Below, in pieces: positions 35,537 through 50,229 of a stretch of 64,000 nt of DNA. The position numbers and the translations under genes are program-made. The stretch is taken from NCBI RefSeq assembly GCF_016185115.1, contig NZ_JACPOF010000021.1:186001-250000 (forward strand), written 5' to 3'. The notes beneath the pieces are model-generated. The model was given only the letters and a program-made list of their open reading frames with translations, ran no database searches and had not been told where the DNA came from. Position 1 is the first letter of the stretch, and every line of letters starts with the position of its first letter. The stretch is from Polaromonas sp. (GTDB lineage Bacteria > Pseudomonadota > Gammaproteobacteria > Burkholderiales > Burkholderiaceae_C).

Positions 35537-37294
35537 ATGGTGCACAGCGTCATTCCCGATGTTCAGAAGCCGGCTGCCTCAAATGATGCGAGTGCTGACT
35601 TGCATAGATTCGCTCAGCAGGCTTGGATTTCCCGTTTCGACAAACCCCTGGTTTCGGGTGCGAAGGGCCCGCTGGCCGGTCTGCAATTCGCCGCCAAGGA
35701 CAATATAGATGCACTTGGCCTGCCAACCACGGCAGCCTGCCCGGCCTTCAGTTACCAGCCTGCCGCACATTCGGCGGTGGTGCAAAAACTGCTCGATGCT
35801 GGTGCAGCGCTGGTCGGCAAAACCAATCTTGACCAGTTTGCCTGCGGCCTCAACGGCACGCGCTCGCCCTATGGCGCCGTGCCCAATGCCATCAACCCCT
35901 TATATGTATCGGGCGGCTCCAGTTCAGGCTCGGCCTATGTGGTGGCTACGGGCCAGGTTGAGTTTGCGCTGGGCACCGACACGGCAGGCTCCGGCCGCGT
36001 GCCGGCGGGGCTGAACAACATTGTGGGCCTCAAGCCGTCGCGGGGGCTGATCAGCACGCGCGGTGCCGTGCCAGCGGCGCAGAGTGTCGATTGCATCTCG
36101 ATTTTTGCGCGCACTGTTGCCACGGCGGTGAAGGTGCTGGAAGCCGCCATGGGCCACGACCCGCTCGATGCGTACTCGCGCAAGCTGACCATGACGAGCA
36201 AGGCCTTTGGAGCCAGCTTCCGTTTTGGTGTGCCTTCAGCCGTGACCTTTATGGGCGACGCCGCTGCGCAGGACGCATTTGATCTGGCCATCAAAAAACT
36301 GGAAGCCATGGGCGGCAAGGCCGTGCGCATCAACTTCGCTCCGCTGGCCGAAGCCGCTGCGCTGCTCTATGAAAGCGCACTGGTCGCAGAACGCTACACC
36401 GCCATCAAAAGCTTTTTTGACGCGCATGAAGCCGAGGTGATAGAGCCGGTGCGCAGCATCATTGCCGCAGGCCGCAACTACAGCGCGGCTGACCTGTATG
36501 AAGCGCAGACAAAACTGAAAAGCCTGGGCCAGCAGGCCAATGCCATGTGGCAGGACATTGACGTGCTGCTGGTGCCAACTGCGCCCACGCATTACACGAT
36601 TGCACAGATGCAGGCCGACCCGGTGGCGCTCAACCGCAACCTCGGCGCGTACACCAACTTCGTCAACCTGCTCGACTACGCTGCGCTGTCCGTGCCCAGC
36701 AGCATGCGTGCCGATGGCCTGCCCTTTGGCATCACCCTGATTGGCCCCTGCGGAAGTGACTGGCAGCTCGCCGACCTGGGCCAGCGCTACCACCATGCCA
36801 CCGGTCTCACGCTGGGCGCCACCGGACAGCCCCTGCCTGCGCCGTCAAACATTCACGGACTGAAAACTGAGGCGATGGTTCGCGTGGCCGTGGTCGGCGC
36901 GCACCTCTCGGGCATGCCGCTCAACATACAGCTCACTGAACGCGGCGCATCGCTGGTGGGCGAAGCAAAAACGTCAGCCGATTACCGCCTCTATGCCCTG
37001 CCAGGAACGACCCCACCCAAACCCGGCATGCTGCGCGTCGCACCAGGCCAGGGCGCATCGATTGCGCTTGAGATCTGGCAGATGCCTGCCGCGCATTACG
37101 GCTCGTTCGTCGCGCTGATTCCCGCGCCGCTGGGCATAGGCATGCTGGCGCTCGAAGACGGCAGCAGCGTGCAGGGTTTTGTATGCGAGCCCGAAGCCCT
37201 CAAGGGCGCAGAAGACATCACACAACACGGTGGCTGGCGTGCCTTCATGGCATCGCTGAAAAACGCAAAAGCCGCCACAACAACGACAGCCTGA
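35537..37294 (+). CDS. atzF: Allophanate hydrolase AtzF
   Basis: A 585-residue enzyme cutting allophanate to ammonia and CO2. The amidase-signature domain has Lys54 (FAAKDNID), cis-Ser128 (SGGSSSGSA) and nucleophile Ser152 (GTDTAGSGRVPA), with the family spacing. A C-terminal domain from about residue 445 (VAVVGAHLSGMPLNIQLTER ... GSSVQGFVCEPEAL) is the allophanate-hydrolase-specific one. It is the first gene of a long one-strand operon with an ABC importer and atzG-atzE-atzH. No urea carboxylase gene is present, so the allophanate must come from another route. No clear Shine-Dalgarno sequence. Confidence 0.93.
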   Translation: MVHSVIPDVQKPAASNDASADLHRFAQQAWISRFDKPLVSGAKGPLAGLQFAAKDNIDALGLPTTAACPAFSYQPAAHSAVVQKLLDAGAALVGKTNLDQFACGLNGTRSPYGAVPNAINPLYVSGGSSSGSAYVVATGQVEFALGTDTAGSGRVPAGLNNIVGLKPSRGLISTRGAVPAAQSVDCISIFARTVATAVKVLEAAMGHDPLDAYSRKLTMTSKAFGASFRFGVPSAVTFMGDAAAQDAFDLAIKKLEAMGGKAVRINFAPLAEAAALLYESALVAERYTAIKSFFDAHEAEVIEPVRSIIAAGRNYSAADLYEAQTKLKSLGQQANAMWQDIDVLLVPTAPTHYTIAQMQADPVALNRNLGAYTNFVNLLDYAALSVPSSMRADGLPFGITLIGPCGSDWQLADLGQRYHHATGLTLGATGQPLPAPSNIHGLKTEAMVRVAVVGAHLSGMPLNIQLTERGASLVGEAKTSADYRLYALPGTTPPKPGMLRVAPGQGASIALEIWQMPAAHYGSFVALIPAPLGIGMLALEDGSSVQGFVCEPEALKGAEDITQHGGWRAFMASLKNAKAATTTTA

Positions 37295-37346
37295 GACATA
37301 CAGCTTCCCAATTTTTTTAACCATCACGTAAACCCAGGAGCCCTTC

Positions 37347-38354
37347 ATGACCAAGCCAGTCCAGACATCCGCCCCAGCTGCAACCCGCAGAAAAGTCCTC
37401 CAGACCGGCGCTGCTGCGCTGGGCGTGATGGGCATGCCCGCCATCGTGCGTGCACAAAGCGGCCCCAAGATCCGCATCGGCTTCTGGCCAGTTGCCGCAG
37501 GCTTGCCGTTCTTCGCTGCGATTGAAAAAGGCTACTTCAAGCAGGCGGGTCTTGACGTCGAGCCGCTGAAGTTTGCAGGCGCACAGCAGGTGATGGAAGC
37601 CATGCTCTCGGGCCGCTCCGACGGCAGCTCCAACGGCACCGGGTCGGCCAATCTCGGCATCGGTGAAATTGCCCAGCCCGGCCTCTTCAAGATCTTCGCC
37701 ACCAACCCCAGCAATGCGAAGTTTGTGCTCGATGAATTCATCGTGCCGAAAGACAGCCCGGTCAAGACCATGGCTGACCTGAAGGGTAAAAAGATAGGGT
37801 CAGGCCCCGGCATACAGAACGTCACCCTGTGCAAGACCATGCTGGAGCGCGCAGGCGCCAGCGGCACCACGGTGGTTGAACTGCCGATTGGCCAGCACGT
37901 CGCCTCGCTGGTCGCCGGCCAGGTTGACGCCTGCTACACGCTGGAGCCTACAGGCACCATTGGCCGCATGAACGGCACCACGCGGGTGCTTGAAGCCGGT
38001 GTGGTTGCCAAGTACATCCTCGGTGATGCGATGGCCCCGTGGCATGGTGGTGCCGCCAGCCTGACGACGGAGTTCATCACCAAGAACCCCGACGTCGCCA
38101 AAAAGTTCATCGCCGCCTACGCGAAAGGCATAGAGCTGGTGCGCACGCAGCCGGCAGAGGCCCGCCAGTACATGAAGGGCTACACAGCTATTGAGGGTCC
38201 GCTGACCGGCGAGGTGCCGCTGGCATCCTACATGCTTTACAACGAGTTCAAGCCCAGTGACGTCGCCTACTTCCAGAAGTTCTACGACCTGTTCACTGAG
38301 AAAGGCATTTTCAACAAGAAGGTCGTTGTCGACGGCCTGCTCTACAAGGGCTGA
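37347..38354 (+). CDS. ABC transporter substrate-binding protein (NMT1/SsuA-like)
   Basis: A 335-residue periplasmic binding protein with a twin-arginine-type signal peptide (ATRRKVLQTGAAALGVMG ... VRAQ). The mature part starts KIRIGFWPVAAGLPFFAAIE, followed by KGYFKQAGLDVE, typical of the NMT1/THI5-like group that binds nitrate, sulphonates, taurine or ureides. Gap to atzF is 52 bp, to the permease 2 bp. Placed in a ureide-degrading operon, it should bind the nitrogen compound broken down by AtzE/AtzF, but the ligand cannot be read from sequence. Confidence 0.9.
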   Translation: MTKPVQTSAPAATRRKVLQTGAAALGVMGMPAIVRAQSGPKIRIGFWPVAAGLPFFAAIEKGYFKQAGLDVEPLKFAGAQQVMEAMLSGRSDGSSNGTGSANLGIGEIAQPGLFKIFATNPSNAKFVLDEFIVPKDSPVKTMADLKGKKIGSGPGIQNVTLCKTMLERAGASGTTVVELPIGQHVASLVAGQVDACYTLEPTGTIGRMNGTTRVLEAGVVAKYILGDAMAPWHGGAASLTTEFITKNPDVAKKFIAAYAKGIELVRTQPAEARQYMKGYTAIEGPLTGEVPLASYMLYNEFKPSDVAYFQKFYDLFTEKGIFNKKVVVDGLLYKG

Positions 38355-38356
38355 TC

Positions 38357-39238
38357 ATGGCTGAACTCACTTCTTCATCTGTGGTGGTGCCGGTTGCACC
38401 GGCGGCCACATCACCTGCGCCATCCAGGCCAGCGGTCAAGGCCTGGACGCCACCGGCAGGCGCCGCGAGCATCCCGCGCAAGAAAGCCAGCTGGGGCAAG
38501 CTGCTGCCCTTCATAGGGCCGATTGCGCTCTTCATCATCTGGGACCTGGTGGTGCGCTTCGGCCTCATCAAGGCCATCCTGCTGCCCAGCCCCGGCGACA
38601 CCGTCGTGGCGCTGGTCACCGGGCTGGCTGGCGGCGCGCTGCTGCTCGACTTTGGCGTTACCGTGCTGCGCACACTCGAAGCCTTTCTGCTGGCTGCGGT
38701 AGTTGGTGTGCCTTTGGGCGTGCTGCTCGGCAGCAATGAAAAAGCCTACCGCAGCGTCGAATTTTTGATCGACTTCTTCCGGTCCACACCGTCGTCGGCA
38801 TTGATCCCGCTCTTTCTGCTGATCTTTGGTGTATCAGACATCAACAAGGTGGCGATTGCGGCTTTCGGTGCCTTCCTCATCGTGGTCTTCAACAGCGCCT
38901 ACGGTGTGATCAACGCGCGCAAGCAGCGCGTGATGGCGGCCAGGGTGATGGGCGCTTCGCGCTGGCAGGTCTTCAAGGACGTGCTGATCTGGGAAAGCCT
39001 GCAGCCTTCGTTTGTCGGCCTGCGCTCGGCGGTGTCGATGGCGCTGGTGATTGTGATCGTGGCCGAAATGTTCATCGGCTCCGACAACGGCCTGGGCCAC
39101 CGCATCATCGATGCGCAGCAGGTGCTCAACGTCAAGAGCATGTACGCGGCCATCCTGGCTGCCGGTGCCCTCGGCTATGCGCTGAATATTCTGTTTCTGG
39201 TCGCCGAACGCAAGATCGTTCACTGGAGTGGAAGATGA
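38357..39238 (+). CDS. ABC transporter permease (SsuC/TauC-like)
   Basis: A 293-residue inner-membrane permease with about six hydrophobic segments after a long N-terminal cytoplasmic stretch (about 50 residues, Pro/Ala-rich). The EAA-type coupling loop is ARVMGASRWQVFKDVLIWES. Other family motifs are FLIDFFRSTPSSALIPLFLL and MALVIVIVAEMFIGSDNGLG. It forms a dimer that pairs with the ATPase encoded next; the two genes overlap by 4 bp (ATGA). Confidence 0.92.
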   Translation: MAELTSSSVVVPVAPAATSPAPSRPAVKAWTPPAGAASIPRKKASWGKLLPFIGPIALFIIWDLVVRFGLIKAILLPSPGDTVVALVTGLAGGALLLDFGVTVLRTLEAFLLAAVVGVPLGVLLGSNEKAYRSVEFLIDFFRSTPSSALIPLFLLIFGVSDINKVAIAAFGAFLIVVFNSAYGVINARKQRVMAARVMGASRWQVFKDVLIWESLQPSFVGLRSAVSMALVIVIVAEMFIGSDNGLGHRIIDAQQVLNVKSMYAAILAAGALGYALNILFLVAERKIVHWSGR

Positions 39239-40056
39239 CTGAAGTCCTCAATGCACCTGTATTTGCCGATGTCCCCACCGTGCCCTTCGCACCCGGCCCG
39301 GCAGGCACAAACATCACGATTCGCGGCCTGACCAAATACTTTGCGGGCTGGCCGCTGTATGAGGACTTCAACCTCGACATCCCCAAGAACAAGATCGTCT
39401 CCGTCTTCGGGCCCAACGGTTGCGGCAAGTCGACGCTGATCAACATGATCGCCGGGCTGGTGCCGATTGATTCGGGCGAGATATTGTTCGACGGCAAGTC
39501 GCTCAAGGACACCAAGATAGGCTACGTCTTCCAGAACTACCGCGAAGCCATGTTCCCGTGGATGCGGACCATAGACAACATCGCCTACCCGCTCAAGCTC
39601 GAAGGCAAGTCAAAGGCGCAGGTCGACAAACGCATGGCCGAGCTGGTCGCCTCGTTTGACGTGAAGTTCGATTTGAACCGCTACCCGTATGAACTGTCAG
39701 GTGGGCAGCAGCAGACCGCATCCATCATGCGTGCGCTCGCACCCAACCCCGAGGTGCTGTTTCTCGACGAACCTTTTTCTGCACTTGATTTCGAGATGAC
39801 TTTGTTCATCCGCGAGAAGCTGCAGGAAGTCTTCATGCAGACCGGCACCACCATGCTGCTGGTCTCGCACGATCTTGAAGAAGCCGTTTACCTGGCCGAC
39901 CAGGTGCTGCTGCTGACCAAGCGCCCGACCAAGGTGGCCGAGATTCTGAACTACGGCGACGCGCGCCCGCGTACGCTGGAGACATTGAGTTCTGCCAGTT
40001 TTGTCGACATGAAAAAGCTCAGCCTGGAGATCTTCCAGCGCGAAGTGCGCCGGTAG
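39235..40056 (+). CDS. ABC transporter ATP-binding protein (SsuB/TauB-like)
   Basis: A 273-residue ATPase: Walker A GPNGCGKST, Q-loop QNYREAMFPW, signature LSGGQQQT, Walker B VLFLDEPFSALDFE and switch HDLEEAV. The N-terminus carries about 25 extra residues before the domain begins (ITIRGLTKYFAGWPLYEDFN). It powers the importer formed with the upstream permease and binding protein. Start overlaps the permease stop; atzG follows after 8 bp. Confidence 0.94.
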   Translation: MTEVLNAPVFADVPTVPFAPGPAGTNITIRGLTKYFAGWPLYEDFNLDIPKNKIVSVFGPNGCGKSTLINMIAGLVPIDSGEILFDGKSLKDTKIGYVFQNYREAMFPWMRTIDNIAYPLKLEGKSKAQVDKRMAELVASFDVKFDLNRYPYELSGGQQQTASIMRALAPNPEVLFLDEPFSALDFEMTLFIREKLQEVFMQTGTTMLLVSHDLEEAVYLADQVLLLTKRPTKVAEILNYGDARPRTLETLSSASFVDMKKLSLEIFQREVRR

Positions 40057-40064
40057 GGGCAATC

Positions 40065-40271
40065 ATGGACGACACCGAAGCCCTGGCATTTGTAAAAGCC
40101 GCAGCAAAAGCCGTCTCGCTGCCGCTGGATGAGGCGCAGGCCCAGCGGGTAGCGGTGCACATGCAGCGCACGTCTTTGATGGCGGCGCAGCTTGATGCCT
40201 TCAGCATGCATGTCGACATGGAGCCGGCCGAGGTCTACAGCCCCGCGCCCTTTCCGAAAAAGCCCGCATGA
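40065..40271 (+). CDS. atzG: AtzG-like small subunit (DUF4089)
   Basis: A 68-residue protein of the DUF4089/AtzG family, homologous to GatC: an N-terminal helix (FVKAAAKAVSLPLDEAQAQR) with VAVHMQRTSLMAAQLDAFSM, then a short extended tail ending in a Pro/Lys-rich segment (AEVYSPAPFPKKPA). In the atrazine degrader Pseudomonas ADP, AtzG binds and stabilises the amidase AtzE. Here its stop overlaps the atzE start by 4 bp, as expected for a 1:1 complex. The equivalent in Klebsiella is HpxX. Confidence 0.9.
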   Translation: MDDTEALAFVKAAAKAVSLPLDEAQAQRVAVHMQRTSLMAAQLDAFSMHVDMEPAEVYSPAPFPKKPA

Positions 40272-41665
40272 AAAATATCGCCTTCGGCAGCGCCGAACTG
40301 ATACGCGGCATCGCTGCCGGAGAGTTCAGTGCGCAGGAGGTGCTGGCCTCTTCCATTGAGCGCATTGAAGCCACCGACGGACGTGTCAACGCCTTCACCG
40401 GTAAAAGCTATGAGCGCGCAAGGCGCGAAGCCGCGGCCATTGACCGCATGCGCGCGCGTGGCGAAAAATTGCCGCCGCTGGCTGGCTTGCCCTATGCGGT
40501 GAAAAACCTGTTTGATGTGGCCGGTGAAGTCACGCTGGCAGGCTCACGCATCAACCGCGGCAACGCGCCTGCGCATGAAGACGCGTTTCTGGTACAGCGC
40601 CTGCAGGCCGCGGGCGCGGTGCTGGTGGGCTCGCTCAACATGGACGAGTACGCCTATGGCTTCACGACAGAAAACACCCATTACGGCCCCTGCCATAACC
40701 CGCATGACCTCAACTGCGTCGCCGGTGGTTCATCGGGCGGTTCGGGTGCGGCGGTGGCGGCGCAACAGGTGCCGCTGACGCTGGGGTCGGATACCAACGG
40801 CTCTATACGTGTGCCCGCATCGCTGTGCGGCGTCTGGGGGCTCAAGCCGACTTTTGGCCGCCTCTCGCGGCGCGGAACCTACCCTTTTGTCCACAACGTT
40901 GACCATCTCGGCCCGCTGGCAGACAGCGTTGAAGGCCTGGCACTCAGTTATGACGCCATGCAGTCACCCGACGCGCTGGATGCAGGCTGCCATGCGTTGT
41001 CGGTACAGCCCGTCGCCGCAGATCTGCGACGGGGCATTGACGGCCTGCGCATTGGTTTGCTGGGCGGCTACTTTGCCGACAACGCCAGCGCCCCGGCACA
41101 GCTCGTGGCACGGCAGGCGGCCAGTGCGCTGCGTGCGGGGGATGGCGTTGAGTGGCCAGACCCGGCGCTTGCACGGGCGGCGGCATTCATCACCAGCGCC
41201 AGCGAGGGCGGTGCGCTGCACCTGGCTGACCTGCGCACGCGTGCAGATGAGTTCGAGCCGCTGTCGGTGGATCGTTTCATATCAGGCGCGCTGCAGCCGG
41301 CAGCCTGGTATGTGCGCGCCCAGCGTTTCCGCCGCCATTACCGCGAGAAGGTCAACGCGCTGTTTCGCCACTGGGATGTGCTCATCGCCCCGGCCACACC
41401 GGTCAGCGCGCCTGTCATAGGCACCGAATGGCTGGACATCAACGGCATGAAGCTGCCCTGCCGGCCCAGCGTTGGCCTGCTGACGCAGCCCATCTCGTTT
41501 GCCGGTTGCCCGGTGGTCGCCGCGCCCATGTGGCCCGAAGGCAAAACCGGCATGCCGATCGGCGTGCAGCTGATTGCCGCCCCCTGGCGTGAAGACCTGG
41601 CGCTGCGTGCGGCCTGGGCCCTGCAACAGGCTGGTGTAGCCCACCTGAAAGTTTCAAAACTGTGA
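40268..41665 (+). CDS. atzE: AtzE-family amidohydrolase (1-carboxybiuret hydrolase-like)
   Basis: A 465-residue amidase-signature enzyme with the full triad: Lys79 (PYAVKNLFDVAG), cis-Ser155 (AGGSSGGSGAA) and nucleophile Ser179 (GSDTNGSIRVPA). Closest recognised type is AtzE/HpxY, which deaminates 1-carboxybiuret in cyanuric acid breakdown. Partner AtzG is encoded immediately upstream, and AtzF, which would take the product onward, is the first gene of the operon. Because no cyanuric acid hydrolase is present, the true substrate may instead be another ureide such as an oxalurate-related compound. Confidence 0.9.
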   Translation: MKNIAFGSAELIRGIAAGEFSAQEVLASSIERIEATDGRVNAFTGKSYERARREAAAIDRMRARGEKLPPLAGLPYAVKNLFDVAGEVTLAGSRINRGNAPAHEDAFLVQRLQAAGAVLVGSLNMDEYAYGFTTENTHYGPCHNPHDLNCVAGGSSGGSGAAVAAQQVPLTLGSDTNGSIRVPASLCGVWGLKPTFGRLSRRGTYPFVHNVDHLGPLADSVEGLALSYDAMQSPDALDAGCHALSVQPVAADLRRGIDGLRIGLLGGYFADNASAPAQLVARQAASALRAGDGVEWPDPALARAAAFITSASEGGALHLADLRTRADEFEPLSVDRFISGALQPAAWYVRAQRFRRHYREKVNALFRHWDVLIAPATPVSAPVIGTEWLDINGMKLPCRPSVGLLTQPISFAGCPVVAAPMWPEGKTGMPIGVQLIAAPWREDLALRAAWALQQAGVAHLKVSKL

Positions 41666-41697
41666 AATACAAGATGGCCAGTGGCCTGCAAGTGAGA

Positions 41698-41780
41698 TGT
41701 CATTGCGGACTTGATCCGCAATCCATGTTTGATGGGTGTGCATTCGGGGTCATGGATCCCGGATCAAGTCCGGGATGACA
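41698..41780. repeat. REP-like doublet inside the ureide operon
   Basis: Two inverted arms, GTCATTGCGGACTTGATCCG (41699) and, on the other strand, GTCATCCCGGACTTGATCCG, each able to form its own hairpin, are separated by a short spacer. The unit ends 4 bp before the atzH ATG. A second copy is at 55604-55693. Such units are widespread in proteobacteria; they often act on mRNA stability. Confidence 0.75.
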
Positions 41781-41784
41781 AGCC

Positions 41785-42159
41785 ATGGAAATTAACCTCC
41801 CCCAGGTGGTGGCCGAAGTCACGGCCGCTTTTGAGCGTTATGAAGCCGCGCTGGTGAGCAACGACGTGGCCGTGCTCGATGAACTCTTCTGGCAGAGCCC
41901 GCACACGCTGCGTTACGGCGCAACTGAAAACCTGTATGGCTACGACGCCATCCAGGCCTTCCGCGCGGGCCGGCCTTCTGCAGGACTTGAGCGCAGGCTT
42001 TTAAAAACCGTCATCACTACATACGGCCATGACTTTGCAACAGCCAATGTCGAGTTCCAGCGCACAGGCGGCGCCAAACCCGGCCGCCAGAGCCAGACCT
42101 GGATGCGCACGGCGGACGGCTGGCGGGTGGTTTCTGCACATGTCAGTCTGCTGGGCTGA
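41785..42159 (+). CDS. atzH: AtzH/HpxZ-like protein (DUF3225, NTF2 fold)
   Basis: A 124-residue NTF2-fold protein of the DUF3225 family: [40 protein letters not shown] then [10 protein letters not shown], and the end [25 protein letters not shown]. AtzH from Pseudomonas ADP acts as a decarboxylating amidohydrolase on 1,3-dicarboxyurea, a side product of the AtzE reaction; HpxZ is the oxalurate-pathway namesake. Context with atzG-atzE-atzF favours the AtzH role. The REP-like unit directly in front may weaken its translation, as only GGGA 10 nt upstream resembles a ribosome-binding site. Confidence 0.88.
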
Positions 42160-42189
42160 ACCCGTTGCCCGCACTATGATTGAAAGCTC

Positions 42190-42948
42190 ATGAAGAGCGT
42201 TGCTTCCCCCGCCACCCCGGCTGCCAAGGCTGATTTCGTGCCTTACGGCTCGGGCAAACCGCAGCATTTCTCGCGCGCCGATGAGGTGTATGAGCAGCTC
42301 AAGCGCGATGTGTCCGACTTCAAGCTGCTGCCCGGCGACCGCTTCACCGAAACCGAAGTCAGCGCGCGTCTCGGCGTCTCGCGCACGCCGGTGCGGCAGG
42401 CGCTGTTCAGGTTGCAGCAGGAGGGTTTTGTCGAGGTGCTGTTTCGCAGCGGCTGGCGCGTGCTGCCCTTTGACTTCAACCAGTTTGAAGACCTCTACGA
42501 CCTGCGCATGGTGCTGGAGACCACGGCCGTGCACCGCCTCTGCGAAGACGCCGTCAAGGTCAACCAGCACCTGCTCGACGAACTCGCCGCCATCTGGCTG
42601 GTCGCGCCCGGGGAGCGCAGCAGCGACATGGACCAGGTTGCGCGCTGGGACGAATCCTTTCACTGCTCCCTGGTCGCGGCCGCCGGCAATGCCGAAACCG
42701 CGCGCGTGCACGGCGACGTGACCGACCGCATACGCGTGATACGCCGGCTCGACTTCACCCAGCAGCCGCGCATAGACGCCACCTATGACGAGCACGCCAA
42801 GATCCTGAAAGCCATACAGCACAAGCGCGGCGACCAGGCCGCCATGCTGCTGCGCGCCCACATCGAGACCAGCCAGGCCGAAGTGCGCAAGATCACGCTG
42901 CACCAGGTGCACATGGCGCGGCAGCAGGGCAAGTCGTCGGGCCGCTGA
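42190..42948 (+). CDS. GntR-family regulator (FCD/FadR type)
   Basis: A 252-residue regulator: winged helix DRFTETEVSARLGVSRTPVR then QALFRLQQEGFVEV, followed by an all-helical FCD ligand domain (LYDLRMVLETTAVHRLCEDA; metal-ligand-type residues in WDESFHCSLVAAAGN and YDEHAKILKAIQ). FCD regulators usually sense carboxylic acids. It is the last gene of the operon, 30 bp after atzH, and the FadR-like palindrome at 35510 is a likely operator. A composite repeat follows in place of a terminator. Confidence 0.92.
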   Translation: MKSVASPATPAAKADFVPYGSGKPQHFSRADEVYEQLKRDVSDFKLLPGDRFTETEVSARLGVSRTPVRQALFRLQQEGFVEVLFRSGWRVLPFDFNQFEDLYDLRMVLETTAVHRLCEDAVKVNQHLLDELAAIWLVAPGERSSDMDQVARWDESFHCSLVAAAGNAETARVHGDVTDRIRVIRRLDFTQQPRIDATYDEHAKILKAIQHKRGDQAAMLLRAHIETSQAEVRKITLHQVHMARQQGKSSGR

Positions 42949-45096: not shown

Positions 45097-46143
45097 TCAG
45101 GCGGGAAGCTTCTGCATCGCCAACAGCAGCTCCATGTCCCGCAGCATCTGCGTTTCTGAAATGCCCACACGGTTGCCAAAGCTGACGTCCACAAGTCCAC
45201 CTGCGCGAGGCGAGTGTTCCCCTTGCGCGCTGCGGACCTGAATCAGGCCAGCGGCCTCCAGCCGTTCCAGCGGCGCCTGCTGTGAGGTGTCCAGGCGAAG
45301 ATCCACGCGAAAGCTCACCCGCATGGCGCAGCCCACGTTGCTGGGGCAACTGGTGAGATAACCGAGTTGCGGGTCTTCACAAAAATCGAGCTGCGCCGCC
45401 AGCAATGACATGACCTGGCGCATGAGCGCATGGCAGGCCGCAGCACTGGCTCCCGGAAGGACAAGGGCCACACGCAGGTGGTCTTCTTCATTGATCCAGA
45501 TAGACAGCTGCCGGTTGTGTGTATTGAAGACGCTTCTGCCCGCCGGCCAGTCTGCGTGAATGCCTGCAGCTGCCATGTATTTGTCGTGCGGCCCGAAGGC
45601 AAGGCGCTCCGAGATCATGGCGTCAAGCTGGCTGGCGGGTATGTCCCCGAATTGCGCTGTGCTGCCATCAAAGTGGGGCGCCAGCGACCTGCATGCATGT
45701 GTGATTTTTTCTTCCACACGGATCCGCTCGGCCTTTGACATGCCGGCGGGGAAAACATGGCCTGCAAGATTGCGCGCCACCCTGATGCGGGTGGAGACAA
45801 CAGCTGCCGGATTGATGCATGCCAGGTCAGTGCGGTGCGTCAGGGACGGTGCCTGAAAACTTTCAACAATGTGATCGAACAGTTCGTGAAAGACGCCGTA
45901 GCTCTGAAAGTCGGGCGCGTAGATGCCAATCAAGCTGTCGGGGTAGCGCCGGCCGGAGCGAATCACGTCCGCCAGGCGGAAGCCGTTTGGTGTCACCCGC
46001 TTTGACAACTCTGCGCTATAGGCGTTGGTAAGGTAGCGGCTTAACAGGGACACCGAAATCGATTCGACTAGTACTGCGACCCGGAAGTAGCGAAACAAAA
46101 TGAAAGCGATGGATTCGCGCCCAGGGCAAGACGCAAGCCGCAA
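45097..46143 (-). CDS. Bacterial phosphagen (arginine-type) kinase, 5' end remodelled
   Basis: An ATP:guanidino phosphotransferase with both domains. N-terminal helical part: SLLSRYLTNAYSAELSKRV and IGIYAPDFQSYGVFHELFD. Catalytic part (numbering of the 348-residue frame): Arg119/121 in VVSTRIRVAR, Glu220 and Arg224 in NEEDHLR, Cys266 and Arg275 in YLTSCPSNVGCAMR, Arg304, Glu309 and His310 in VRSAQGEH. All five phosphate-binding Arg, both catalytic Glu and the Cys of arginine kinase are kept. The presence of the N-terminal domain rules against McsB. There is no in-frame ATG near the start: TTG 46143 and 46098 or GTG 46053 remain, and the first two lie in a palindromic element. Last gene of a binding-protein operon. 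Confidence 0.88.
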   Translation of the reverse strand: MRLASCPGRESIAFILFRYFRVAVLVESISVSLLSRYLTNAYSAELSKRVTPNGFRLADVIRSGRRYPDSLIGIYAPDFQSYGVFHELFDHIVESFQAPSLTHRTDLACINPAAVVSTRIRVARNLAGHVFPAGMSKAERIRVEEKITHACRSLAPHFDGSTAQFGDIPASQLDAMISERLAFGPHDKYMAAAGIHADWPAGRSVFNTHNRQLSIWINEEDHLRVALVLPGASAAACHALMRQVMSLLAAQLDFCEDPQLGYLTSCPSNVGCAMRVSFRVDLRLDTSQQAPLERLEAAGLIQVRSAQGEHSPRAGGLVDVSFGNRVGISETQMLRDMELLLAMQKLPA

Positions 46144-46234
46144 CGAAGGCTGGACGCCTTGGTAAGGCTGGCAACGCCGCCATGGGTGCGAAGACGCGCT
46201 TTCATGTTTCGATATTTTCGGGTTGCAGTGCTAG
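46068..46234. mobile_element. Miniature inverted-repeat element at the 5' end of the phosphagen kinase gene
   Basis: A 167-bp unit with imperfect terminal inverted repeats of about 40 bp. Left begins CTAGTACTGCGACCCGGAAG; right, on the minus strand, begins CTAGCACTGCAACCCGAAAA; both continue ...CGAAACA...TGAAAGCG. The core holds CAGGGCAAGACGC (46122-46134) and GCAACGCCGCCATGGG (46171-46186), shared with the element at 30794. Its right end includes the stop codon of the lipoprotein gene. Confidence 0.7.
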
Positions 46235-46989
46235 GGTGCTGTGCAGTAAGCGTCGGTATCCTGCTGCGTGATGACTGCTGCCGGCGTGCTGGCCTGCACC
46301 AGGAACTCTGACGCGCCGTAGTGGTTGGGCCGGGCGTTGACCTGGTTCCAGTCGTAGGTGTAACCCAGGCGTGTGAAGGGGTAGCCGGGGCCGCCAGCGC
46401 CGTCGACCACGAAGGAGTCTGCCATCTGCCTCAAGACGTAGTCACGCACATCCGGCGCGCGGCTGGCCTGTATGCCAACGGTGCAGACGGGGCTTTGCGG
46501 ATTGGTTTCATCAACGCCAAGGCAGGGCCTGTCGAGGCGATCACGGGCGAGCTCCATGGTCACAAACTTCGCCTTGCGAAACTGCGGCGGCGGGTCCATG
46601 GGCAGGCCCAGCAGCTGTTCAATGCGCTGGCGCAATGCGTCGCCCTTCAAGCCCCAGGCGCGGCAACTCGCCTGCACCTCGCCGGCCAGCGTGACCCAGA
46701 TGCGGTCTGGCGGCGTGGTGGTGGCGCAGCTGGTGTCCGGCGCCTTGCAGGGCGTGCGGCTTTCAGTCACCCATGACACCACGCGAACCTTGTCACCTTG
46801 CGGCAGCGGCATCAGGGGCGTGACCTTGCGTGGACTGGCTACCGCTGCGTCGGCAATCGCGGCTTCATAGACCGCCTTTGTCGAGTCGGCAGATGGCGCA
46901 ACAGTAGCGCAACCAGCCAGTGCAATAGCTGCCGCCCAGATGAGGGCAGCGCCCACGCGGCGCATGTTGTGGGAAAGGTGTGTTGTCAT
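46231..46989 (-). CDS. Lipoprotein of unknown function
   Basis: A 252-residue protein with a lipoprotein signal peptide (RRVGAALIWAAAIALAGC, lipobox LAGC). The rest shows no family I recognise: several cysteines (RTPCKAPDTSCATT, ASCRAWG, RPCLGVDE, SPVCTVG) suggest disulphides in the periplasm, and the end is GYTYDWNQVNARPNHYGASE followed by FLVQAS. Its ATG overlaps the stop of the TAXI gene by 4 bp, so the two are coupled. A second ATG at 46965 would still keep the lipobox. The stop codon lies in the inverted repeat of a small element. Confidence 0.75.
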   Translation of the reverse strand: MTTHLSHNMRRVGAALIWAAAIALAGCATVAPSADSTKAVYEAAIADAAVASPRKVTPLMPLPQGDKVRVVSWVTESRTPCKAPDTSCATTTPPDRIWVTLAGEVQASCRAWGLKGDALRQRIEQLLGLPMDPPPQFRKAKFVTMELARDRLDRPCLGVDETNPQSPVCTVGIQASRAPDVRDYVLRQMADSFVVDGAGGPGYPFTRLGYTYDWNQVNARPNHYGASEFLVQASTPAAVITQQDTDAYCTAP

Positions 46990-48332
46990 GCTTTGTCCCT
47001 CATAAATTCAAGCCGGGCCCGCGAATCTGCGATGGCCGAAAAAAGCTGCGGCACCAGGTTGGCATTGGCCAGCGGTCCGTTGGCCGTCAGGCGGCGCATG
47101 GCGGTGGCCTTGATGTCCGTGAGTTCTTTTTGCCACGCTGCAAGCTGCGACGGGGGCGGCGGGTCGTCCGGCACGGCGTCGACAGCGGCATCGACGGCAA
47201 GCACACGTTCAATCAGGGCAACAAAAAATGCATCGTCGGTTTCGGCTTTGACAGGCTCGGGCGGGGCGCCCTTGAACCACTTGAACACCACAATCAATGT
47301 CGAGGCGACTGAAAGTACCAGGCCGAAAAGCGCTTCAACCTTCTTGAGCGTGGCCTGCGACAGGAAGGGGTTCTTGCGGTCCATGAACATCCGCGTGCCT
47401 GCGGACAGCGGGTAGCTCGAAGATTCGAGAATCTTGTCTTCATCAAACTTCATCTTCAGGTGCATCTGCAGATCCGGGCTGTACACGCCCTCAAGCACCT
47501 TGAACACGGCGCGCGGGTCGAGATTTGAATTGGCCACCAGCTGCAGGTTGACACCCACAGTCCTCACATCGCGCGGCGGCACCGGCGGCTGGACGCTGTA
47601 CATATAGGCCATGACTTTGGTGTCGGCCACCCAGCCCTGGCGCAAGGCGAGTGCGCTGGGGAAAGGAATCTCCAGCAGGCTGTAGCCATACTGCTTGACG
47701 ATGTAGTCCGCCACGTTGGAAGGCGCAAACGAGGTGATGACGATGACCTCAGGCACCCGGTCCTTGCGCAGGGCCAGCAGGTCTTCGGTGCTCAGGTTTG
47801 TTTCAACATAGTCCACGCCATCGCGCATGCCCGAAAACTCCAGCAGCTGTTTGCCGATCACCCGTGTGCCGCCTTTTTTGCTGCCCAGATTGATGCGCTT
47901 GCCGCGCATGCCGGCGATGTCCTTGATGTCGGGGCTGACCAGGAAGTGCAGCAGCTCGGGCGCGAGGTTGGCGACATGGCTCACGTTCGGAAAGGGCAGC
48001 TCCAGGCCGCCCTGTATCAGCGCGAAATCCAGCTTGCCCTGGGACACCAGCGACAGCGCCTCCTGCGAACCATCTGTCGGCAGCACGTCAAGACGCACGC
48101 CCAGCGGCAGGATGTCGTCGCGCAGGGTGCCGGCCAGGTAGTGCCGGTTGCCCAGGATGTCGCCGCCCGTGATCTTCAGCGAATAGGTTCTGGGCAGCAC
48201 CTCGTAGACATAGTGGCCGGCGATGCCCAGCAGCACAATGACAAGCAGGCAGGCCAGCGTCTTTCGCACGCGTTCATGGCGCTGCATGCGATTGAGCCAG
48301 TCGTTGAGTATTCCGCGTGCTTCGTTGGCCAT
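46986..48332 (-). CDS. TAXI-family substrate-binding protein, membrane-anchored
   Basis: A 448-residue protein: an N-terminal membrane helix (TLACLLVIVLLGIAGHYVYE), then a TAXI/NMT1-like periplasmic binding domain (YSLKITGGDILGNRHYLAGT ... INLGSKKGGTRVIGKQLLEF). A second membrane helix follows (LFGLVLSVASTLIVVFKWF) and then a cytoplasmic tail of about 85 residues. TAXI proteins normally serve TRAP transporters, but no DctQ/DctM gene is present and this protein is anchored at both ends. A sensory or scaffolding role is therefore possible. It starts 10 bp after the PstS-like gene; frame extension to 48419 would overlap that gene. Confidence 0.85.
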   Translation of the reverse strand: MANEARGILNDWLNRMQRHERVRKTLACLLVIVLLGIAGHYVYEVLPRTYSLKITGGDILGNRHYLAGTLRDDILPLGVRLDVLPTDGSQEALSLVSQGKLDFALIQGGLELPFPNVSHVANLAPELLHFLVSPDIKDIAGMRGKRINLGSKKGGTRVIGKQLLEFSGMRDGVDYVETNLSTEDLLALRKDRVPEVIVITSFAPSNVADYIVKQYGYSLLEIPFPSALALRQGWVADTKVMAYMYSVQPPVPPRDVRTVGVNLQLVANSNLDPRAVFKVLEGVYSPDLQMHLKMKFDEDKILESSSYPLSAGTRMFMDRKNPFLSQATLKKVEALFGLVLSVASTLIVVFKWFKGAPPEPVKAETDDAFFVALIERVLAVDAAVDAVPDDPPPPSQLAAWQKELTDIKATAMRRLTANGPLANANLVPQLFSAIADSRARLEFMRDKA

Positions 48333-48342
48333 GTGCTGCCTG

Positions 48343-49176
48343 CTATCTGACCGGGATGAACCCGGCGCGGTCAATGATGGCCTGCCCTTCGGGCGATTCC
48401 GCCAGGGCGATGAAGTCAAGCGCCTGCTGACGTGCGCGGCCGAAAGTCATCAGGTACAGCGAGCGCTCGAACGGGTAACGGCCGCTGAGAATGGTCTCGC
48501 GCGTGATCGGAATGTTGTCTATCTCAAGGGCCGGAATGTCGGCCGGCAAGCCGCCATCGTCAGTCGCCACACAACCTATGGCGTTGGGGTGCTGGCGAAT
48601 GAAGTCCAGCAGTTCGTCCCGCGTCTTCCTGAAGTTCGACTTCAGTGAGAGGTCTGCACCGGCAAGGACAACCTCGCTGACATAACGGCTGGTGGATGTA
48701 TGGCGCGGGCGCATCACTACCTCTATGGGGCTGTCGGTGCCGCCCAGTACTTTCCAGTTGTTGATTTTGCCCGTCAGCACATCGCGCACCAATGACTGCC
48801 TGATTTGCCTGACCGGGTTTTTGGCATTCACCACCACTGCAATCGCATCCCTCGCAACCAGGTGGTTGTGTGCCTGCGGCTCCGCTTCCGCGCCTTCCAG
48901 GTCGCGCGCCATGGCTGCAATGTCGATGGCATGGCGCTTGACGGCGAGCAGGCCCTGCAATGAACCACCGCGCTCCACAATGACTTTCACGCCGTAGCGC
49001 TTTTCGAATTCCCTGCCCAGCGCGATGTTCATCTCATACATGGCCGACGCGCCGCCTATGAGCAGCGCATTCTTGCCTGCAGGCGTGCGGCGAAGCTGTA
49101 CCCATTGCCACGCCGGGTAGGCGGTAGCCCCGGCAATGGCCGCGACAAATCCGCCGGCGAGGTAGCGTCTTTTCAT
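48343..49176 (-). CDS. PstS-like substrate-binding protein, second of two
   Basis: A 277-residue protein with an uncleaved-looking N-terminal helix (RRYLAGGFVAAIAGATAYPA). A PBP-like fold follows, related to phosphate-binding PstS: LLIGGASAMYEMNIALGREF, VERGGSLQGLLAVKRHAIDI with AAMARDLE, and VLTGKINNWKVLGGTDSPIE, where GxIxNWxxxGG is the PstS hallmark. Its ATG overlaps the stop of the first PstS-like gene by 4 bp. No pstCAB genes are present, so transport by a classic Pst system is not encoded here. Confidence 0.86.
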   Translation of the reverse strand: MKRRYLAGGFVAAIAGATAYPAWQWVQLRRTPAGKNALLIGGASAMYEMNIALGREFEKRYGVKVIVERGGSLQGLLAVKRHAIDIAAMARDLEGAEAEPQAHNHLVARDAIAVVVNAKNPVRQIRQSLVRDVLTGKINNWKVLGGTDSPIEVVMRPRHTSTSRYVSEVVLAGADLSLKSNFRKTRDELLDFIRQHPNAIGCVATDDGGLPADIPALEIDNIPITRETILSGRYPFERSLYLMTFGRARQQALDFIALAESPEGQAIIDRAGFIPVR

Positions 49177-50081
49177 CGTGTGGCCGATGCAGCGGTTTTG
49201 GCCGTTGGGGCCGGCAAGGCAAATACCGAATTGGAAATGGGCGCTGACAGGCCGGTCACAAACTGCAGGAACTTCTGCGCCTCTGCCGACGGTTTTTCAC
49301 GTGTCACAAACATCAGCGGAGCCAGCAGTGTGTAGCGGCCGCTTTGCACGCTGTCTGCACCGGCAATGACCTTGTCCACCGACAGAATCTTGAGTGCCCG
49401 GTCCTTGACTGATTCGGTCGCCATGTAGGTGACGCCGAAGGGGTCGCTGCCCACGCCGGCTACACGCTGCTCCAGCTCGGCGTTGCGGGCTCTGGGTGTG
49501 AAGGTGTCCGTATCGCCGAGAACCTTGTCGTTCCAGGTGTTGGTAATGCCGTCGCCCGGCGGGCCGATGTAAACGTTGATGGGGGCGTCTTTTCCGCCCA
49601 CGGCCTTCCAGTTGTTGATGCGCCCCGAGAAGATTTCCCGCAGTTGCACCATGCTGAGGTCGTTCACGGGGTTGCTGAAATGAACCGCAGGCGCCATCGC
49701 CACCTGCCGGAAGGGCACATTGACCAGTTTTACGCCGCTGCGGACGATCTCGTCCTCGGTGTCGTCAGAGGCCGAGCCACTGACGATGGCCATGTCGGCC
49801 GTGTTGTCCAGCAGCGTCAGGTAGCCGCGCGATGTGCCGCCACCACTGACCACCACCGACGACTTGGGGTTGCTTCGCATGTACTGTTCGGCCAGGGATT
49901 GCACGATGGAGCCGAATGCAATCGAGCCCCGGATGTGCACCGTGCGCGGGGCGGGGGTTTTATCAGCCGACAGGGCCGGGGAGGGCAGGACTGCCATCGT
50001 TGCTGCCATCACTGGCGCCAGCGCCGCAAGCATGAATGCACGCCTGGATGTCCCCGCCAGCCTGTAGTCGCAAGTTTTCAT
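49173..50081 (-). CDS. PstS-like substrate-binding protein, first of two
   Basis: A 302-residue exported protein with a twin-arginine-type leader (TSRRAFMLAALAPVMAATMA). PstS-like motifs: VHIRGSIAFGSIVQSLAEQY, VVSGGGTSRGYLTLLDNTAD, LREIFSGRINNWKAVGGKDA. It is more PstS-like than the next gene and may bind phosphate or another oxyanion. The start MKTCDYRLAG at 50081 keeps the arginine pair near the N-terminus; the frame is open to 50129. It is the first gene of the minus-strand string that ends with the phosphagen kinase. Confidence 0.87.
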   Translation of the reverse strand: MKTCDYRLAGTSRRAFMLAALAPVMAATMAVLPSPALSADKTPAPRTVHIRGSIAFGSIVQSLAEQYMRSNPKSSVVVSGGGTSRGYLTLLDNTADMAIVSGSASDDTEDEIVRSGVKLVNVPFRQVAMAPAVHFSNPVNDLSMVQLREIFSGRINNWKAVGGKDAPINVYIGPPGDGITNTWNDKVLGDTDTFTPRARNAELEQRVAGVGSDPFGVTYMATESVKDRALKILSVDKVIAGADSVQSGRYTLLAPLMFVTREKPSAEAQKFLQFVTGLSAPISNSVFALPAPTAKTAASATR

Positions 50082-50229
50082 CGTTATGGTGCGATGCGCA
50101 GCCAGGAGATCATTTCCCTGTGCACACACTGTAACTCCCTGTTACAGACCGATGGTACGCGTTTGGCAGCGTAACCGGAAGGGGATTTGCGCGGCCTTCG
50201 CTGTTGCTACAACAGCGAAGTGCGCCAGT

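Follow-up and report, generated by a model that had tools for sequence, protein, structure and literature searches.

The stretch analyzed here, referred to as the window, comprises 64,000 nucleotides of a Polaromonas sp. genome (contig NZ_JACPOF010000021.1, positions 186,001 to 250,000). On its minus strand, we found an open reading frame encoding a kinase of the phosphagen kinase family, which is the subject of this study:

45097..46053, minus strand: phosphagen kinase (guanidino kinase), 318 amino acids, GTG start
46054..46143, minus strand: in-frame upstream extension with a TTG start, probably untranslated, outside the 318-residue model P0001

A 348-residue version of the protein begins at the TTG codon at position 46143. 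However, the GTG start at 46053 is favored because the model in the protein collection (P0001) has 318 residues and because, in alignment A1, 27 of the 32 rows begin at the first column of this form; two others begin one residue earlier and three have longer extensions. On this basis, the gene is best read as 45097-46053.

The protein matched PF02807 in its N-terminal part (E value 4.8e-19) and PF00217 in its C-terminal catalytic part (E value 1.7e-35), both above the curated gathering cut-offs. The first-pass annotation of the window, made from the sequence alone, had proposed an N-terminal guanidino-kinase domain, and the PF02807 match confirms it. The kinase also tested positive for the family fold, and sequence and model together establish the two-domain phosphagen kinase fold. 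In the window genome (4.8 megabases), the catalytic domain had a single match. Among the 120 best of 322 matches in the protein collection, 85 further relatives were 49-78% identical to the window protein, and the next matches followed only at 33-38%. The proteins above this gap (P0001-P0086, window protein included) are hereafter called the clade. Where a name was given among the matches listed, it was Polaromonas, Rhodoferax, Caenimonas (one record being Caenimonas aquaedulcis), Burkholderiales or Pseudomonadota. We regard the protein as a true member of the phosphagen kinase family from a separate bacterial lineage, unremarkable in kind but unusual in its nucleotide site and in its gene company.

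Residues are numbered after Limulus arginine kinase, mapped via chain 7re6 (offset 18), and clade residue counts refer to 85 rows, the broken P0085 having been dropped from the 86; P0084 lacks the N-terminal domain. R124, R126, E225, R229, C271, R280, R309 and E314 were present in 85/85 clade members, including the window protein. The alignment confirmed the residues named in the first-pass annotation, namely five phosphate-binding arginines, two glutamates, Cys266 (Cys236 in the 318-residue form, C271 in Limulus) and Gln307 (Gln277 in the 318-residue form, position 312). As judged from the alignment, the phosphoryl-transfer site is complete. The weight given there to Gln307, as a substitution for Arg beside the active loop, was not borne out. 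Position 312 lies outside the set of five phosphate-binding arginines, and it varies: the tick reference has Arg there; the sea-anemone and Schistosoma references have His, as do 92/93 and 28/34 bacterial rows in two sets; and 50 of the 85 clade members have Ala.

In enzymes of this family, the nucleotide phosphates are bound by arginines while a pair of glutamates positions the guanidinium, and the phosphate moves in line and reversibly between the two. The kinase sequence holds nothing that speaks against this chemistry. The arginine-kinase-type specificity loop (Asp62, Ser63, Tyr68) is present as well, reading D, S, L, I, G, I, Y at positions 62-68 without gaps relative to 7re6. Ser63 and Tyr68, which we take to be the arginine-contacting residues, are each retained in 83/85 clade members. 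The protein is probably an active kinase of small guanidino compounds within the phosphagen-kinase family, belonging to a separate bacterial lineage, and arginine would be its likeliest acceptor because Ser63, Tyr68 and the loop length are kept.

The points that weigh against this reading concern the acceptor, the pocket for the nucleotide base and, as described further below, the gene surroundings. First, the specificity loop is no proof of arginine as the substrate. Second, two residues of the base pocket have been lost. In PMC12467219, Ser122, His185 and His284 of arginine kinase are described as contributing to nucleotide-ring interactions, and the two histidine positions were located in the window by alignment:

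45604..45606, minus strand: codon of Arg150, at the position of His185 (nucleotide-ring residue)
45307..45309, minus strand: codon of Arg249, at the position of His284 (nucleotide-ring residue)

The window protein thus retains Ser122 and carries Arg at both 185 and 284. Across the clade, Ser122 is retained in 83/85 members, His185 in 2/85 and His284 in 0/85, the substitutes being mostly Arg at 185 (60/85) and mostly Arg (43) or Met (36) at 284. Outside the clade, His284 was found in 34/34, 92/93, 12/15 and 94/97 rows of four sets. His185 was found in 31/34, 93/93 and 8/15 rows but in only 67/97 of the fourth set, so that loss of His185 alone is not unusual. Furthermore, Tyr89, Val283 and Asn327 are changed in the clade, mostly to Phe, Tyr and Phe, respectively; in the other sets, each of these residues is fixed, in no fewer than 141 of 144 rows. 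The linker between positions 89 and 122 measures 21 residues in 80/86 clade members versus 29-35 elsewhere (one row at 47 excepted), 11 positions being deleted. The claim of the first-pass annotation that every key residue is in place therefore holds for the transfer site and fails for the adenine side. The canonical set Ser122/His185/His284, which is typical of arginine kinases but not strictly defining, is incomplete, and with Arg at 185 and 284 we file the protein in the wider phosphagen kinase family rather than as a canonical arginine kinase. Since both nucleotide-ring histidines are replaced, the base would be held differently from the way it is in characterized arginine kinases, and base preference or affinity should differ.

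The clade-wide rewriting of nucleotide-side residues and the linker deletion also favor another explanation, namely that a guanidino kinase was repurposed toward a non-arginine guanidine or ureido acceptor, or toward a non-ATP (adenosine triphosphate) donor, and serves signaling or catabolism instead of energy buffering. We consider this possible but rather unlikely. The retention of Ser63 and Tyr68 speaks against it, and loss of His284 need not alter the donor: McsB, which uses ATP, has Met at 284 in 3/3 rows, so the clade could still use ATP.

Met284 is a likeness of McsB to 36/85 clade members, and the catalytic domains are homologous. Some relatives' records are in fact named "protein-arginine kinase," and the catalytic domain matched McsB models weakly. 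Nevertheless, it is highly improbable that the window kinase is a protein-arginine kinase of the McsB type, which tags proteins for degradation. The NCBIfam McsB equivalog models remained far under their cut-off (best, 99.8 versus 385 bits), and the window kinase has the N-terminal domain, whose tabulated positions are gapped in the three McsB rows. McsB acts on proteins, and its gene in B. subtilis sits between mcsA and clpC; no McsA or ClpC match was found among the eight neighbors of the window kinase that were scanned. In three IQ-TREE runs (17, 12 and 12 clade rows), the clade was monophyletic with supports of 100/99 to 100/100, and the three McsB rows formed their own group, apart from it, at 100/99 to 100/100. 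The kinase thus does not place among McsB proteins, in agreement with the first-pass annotation.

The deeper placement of the clade should be taken with care because its stem is long (1.2-2.0 changes per column). Chloroflexota and cyanobacterial relatives were sister to the clade in two trees with modest support (96/72 and 83/62). In the run without these relatives, the program warned that the long branches of McsB and the clade meet; an alliance with Desulfobacterota was not rejected there (approximately unbiased [AU] test, p 0.28). A recent transfer from animals was also considered. With 6 animal rows in the larger set, the AU test rejected a grouping of the clade with animal kinases (p 0.025); with 3 such rows in a smaller set used earlier, it did not (p 0.104). 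A link to animal enzymes is thus not supported.

In the samples searched, the kinase is rare per genome. Strong matches occurred in 3/87 genomes of the window genus, including the window's own (a fourth match, at an E value of 8.9e-4, was excluded), and in 3/103 genomes of the genus of Rhodoferax record L009. In the family sample, searched with PF02807, and in the order sample, searched with the protein, the window's own genome was the only carrier (1/399 each). A scan of 84,980 species genomes, in which an exact short peptide pattern was required, gave 32 loci, of which six were clade-like (L007-L011 and L038, the latter just 68 residues long). The rarity in bacteria asserted by the first-pass annotation is therefore correct per genome, but bacterial members span several phyla according to record titles and names. 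The two genus-mates with the kinase (G033 and G046, loci L003 and L004) had match identities equal to those of two Polaromonas records from metagenome-assembled genomes (L007 and L010), which points to Polaromonas as the genus and supports the betaproteobacterial host assumed in the first-pass annotation. For the Chloroflexota lineage, one further match (37%) appeared in 396 genomes of one class, and none beyond the genome of L034 in 388 genomes of another.

We also considered an origin from a mobile element or phage and rejected it: 0/4 pattern matches in viral_contigs encoded a relative. Nine phage records, all unannotated, gave partial matches only (52-76% of the query, none reaching 80%), which we interpret as McsB-like. 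Among the 20 plasmid records listed of 21, there was one distant phosphagen kinase; the others were partial matches, and 16 of these carry the annotation protein arginine kinase. The distant kinase (L046:2872-3969) adjoins transposase genes on a plasmid carried by Candidatus Bandiella woodruffii, an endosymbiont of ciliates.

Patchy presence of this kind could indicate a sporadically acquired pseudo-enzyme that is decaying or inactive, and in the three Rhodoferax-genus genomes the kinase is indeed less conserved (69-76%) than its MscS neighbor (83-86%). Yet the eight catalytic residues are invariant, environmental relatives are many, and pairwise comparison of six clade genes gave nonsynonymous divergence (dN) of 0.16-0.32, synonymous divergence (dS) of 1.1-2.5 and a dN/dS of about 0.11-0.27, well below 1, the ratio being only rough because dS is near saturation. 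The clade genes are clearly under purifying selection, and we consider decay very unlikely. This ratio and the 85 further relatives also place the reading frame well outside what chance would produce.

The window kinase is about 30% identical to Limulus arginine kinase (1bg0; EC 2.7.3.3), from which the clade differs by replacement of His185 and His284, by Phe for Asn327 and Tyr89 and by a linker 11 positions shorter. Arginine kinases have been described from bacteria before. A review (PMC6429109) lists such enzymes from Desulfotalea, Myxococcus, Moritella and Sulfurovum, names few bacterial phosphagen kinases and treats their origin as debated. Those four proteins belong to the same family and lie outside our alignments; the other bacterial rows that we aligned have both histidines in 31/34, 92/93 and 7/15 cases (three sets) and linkers of 29-34 residues, with one row at 47. 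Among the Chloroflexota and cyanobacterial kinases (P0238-P0247, L031 and L034), position 284 is non-His in 8/10 of rows P0238-P0247 (Arg in 5), and Asn327 is mostly lost in the Chloroflexota set too. However, rows P0238-P0247 have linkers of 30-35 residues, Tyr or Cys at 89 and Val or Leu at 283. In the literature searched, we found, by title and abstract, no report on this lineage, on a betaproteobacterial phosphagen kinase or on one tied to an MscS channel.

The kinase is preceded on the same strand by four genes:

46231..46989, minus strand: 252-residue protein, lipoprotein-like by eye, the upstream neighbor of the kinase; no Pfam or NCBIfam match
46986..48419, minus strand: TAXI/NMT1-like solute-binding protein (NMT1_3, PF16868), membrane-anchored by eye; TRAP_TAXI below its cut-off
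48343..49176, minus strand: PstS-like periplasmic binding protein (PF12849); TIGR02136 below its cut-off
49173..50129, minus strand: second PstS-like periplasmic binding protein (PF12849); TIGR02136 below its cut-off

The order of two PstS-like genes, TAXI/NMT1-like gene, 252-residue gene and kinase is repeated in L010, where the 252-residue protein is 75% identical over 253 aligned residues; the PstS-like gene order also occurs in L062. The gap before the kinase is 24 base pairs (bp) in L010, after the homologue of the 252-residue gene, and 177 bp in the window, so that co-transcription is uncertain in the latter. A promoter scan at the window kinase found no promoter-like site. In G033, 567 bp separate the TAXI-like gene from the start of its contig, which also holds part of the 252-residue gene, and the kinase lies 122 bp from the start of another contig, an arrangement that fits one operon split by assembly. 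TAXI-like genes (E value of at most 1e-40) occurred in 4/87 genus genomes, namely the three kinase carriers and G010, which has a relative of the anchored binding protein (56%) without the kinase. By eye, the TAXI/NMT1-like protein (46986-48419, minus strand) has two hydrophobic segments and a cytoplasmic tail. A Pfam scan of the immediate neighbors found no permease or ATPase gene, and the anchored protein may be a sensor.

Similarly, at three loci of the Rhodoferax genus, the kinase lies 3-30 bp downstream of a 489- to 490-residue channel gene:

L008:8501-9970, L009:8525-9997, L011:8524-9996: MscS channel with a cyclic-nucleotide-binding domain, directly upstream of the kinase

MscS relatives (E value of at most 1e-60) occurred in 4/103 Rhodoferax-genus genomes, three of them with the kinase; the fourth, G962, has a similar gene (37%) without it. 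The pair appears to be kept in two settings, as L008 and L009 share downstream genes by eye and L011 does not. With a home-made cyclic-nucleotide profile, four of the species-scan loci (L008, L009, L011 and L031) and no others had the domain immediately upstream of the kinase; many loci of that scan have short flanks, and L011 had an additional distant match elsewhere. The window genome gave four partial matches to the MscS partner, of which three covered the cyclic-nucleotide part and one the channel part, and none at full length. In L038, the gene 19 bp upstream of the kinase encodes a protein of 358 residues that begins with a hydrophobic stretch and matches a zinc ribbon below threshold. 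In L031, a Chloroflexota metagenome-assembled genome, an ABC transporter fused to a cyclic-nucleotide-binding domain (L031:714-3014) lies 573 bp upstream of a related kinase. A role in defense was rejected, as PADLOC gave no match for the kinase, for the two window neighbors tested or for the L038 neighbor; the Rhodoferax MscS protein matched Pycsar effector models (best E value, 1.9e-14) through its cyclic-nucleotide domain only. Partner genes vary from one genus to another, and the loci are only a handful; moreover, in these co-occurrence counts, the genomes are not phylogenetically independent.

The window also holds, at 35537-42948 on the plus strand, a ureide-degrading cluster (allophanate hydrolase, SsuA-type ABC transporter genes, AtzE amidohydrolase, HpxZ/AtzH-like protein and GntR regulator), and the same cluster lies near the kinase in L007. 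Such proximity, like that of the adjoining sensor or channel genes, is consistent with the repurposed kinase described above, but the cluster may be plain genus synteny.

Under the reading that we prefer, an active guanidino kinase, the enzyme would reversibly shift the gamma phosphate of a nucleoside triphosphate to L-arginine, most likely, or to a close guanidine, and the phosphorylated product would serve as a short-term energy or phosphate buffer. The gene neighbors suggest a membrane-linked role, in which the kinase would work with a membrane sensor or channel (the solute-binding cluster in Polaromonas, the MscS channel with its cyclic-nucleotide domain in Rhodoferax), with energy buffering perhaps during osmotic or nutrient shocks. 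More speculatively, and in our view improbably, the rebuilt base site might change the donor or the regulation relative to characterized phosphagen kinases, and the kinase would form the cytoplasmic output stage of membrane sensing, fed by anchored solute-binding proteins or by MscS channels that carry a cyclic-nucleotide domain, instead of a muscle-like energy buffer.

Overall, a lineage that has kept the transfer chemistry with an altered base pocket could allow base recognition and catalysis to be studied apart, and the close sensor or channel gene neighbors offer a concrete and testable clue to the role of the enzyme in its hosts.
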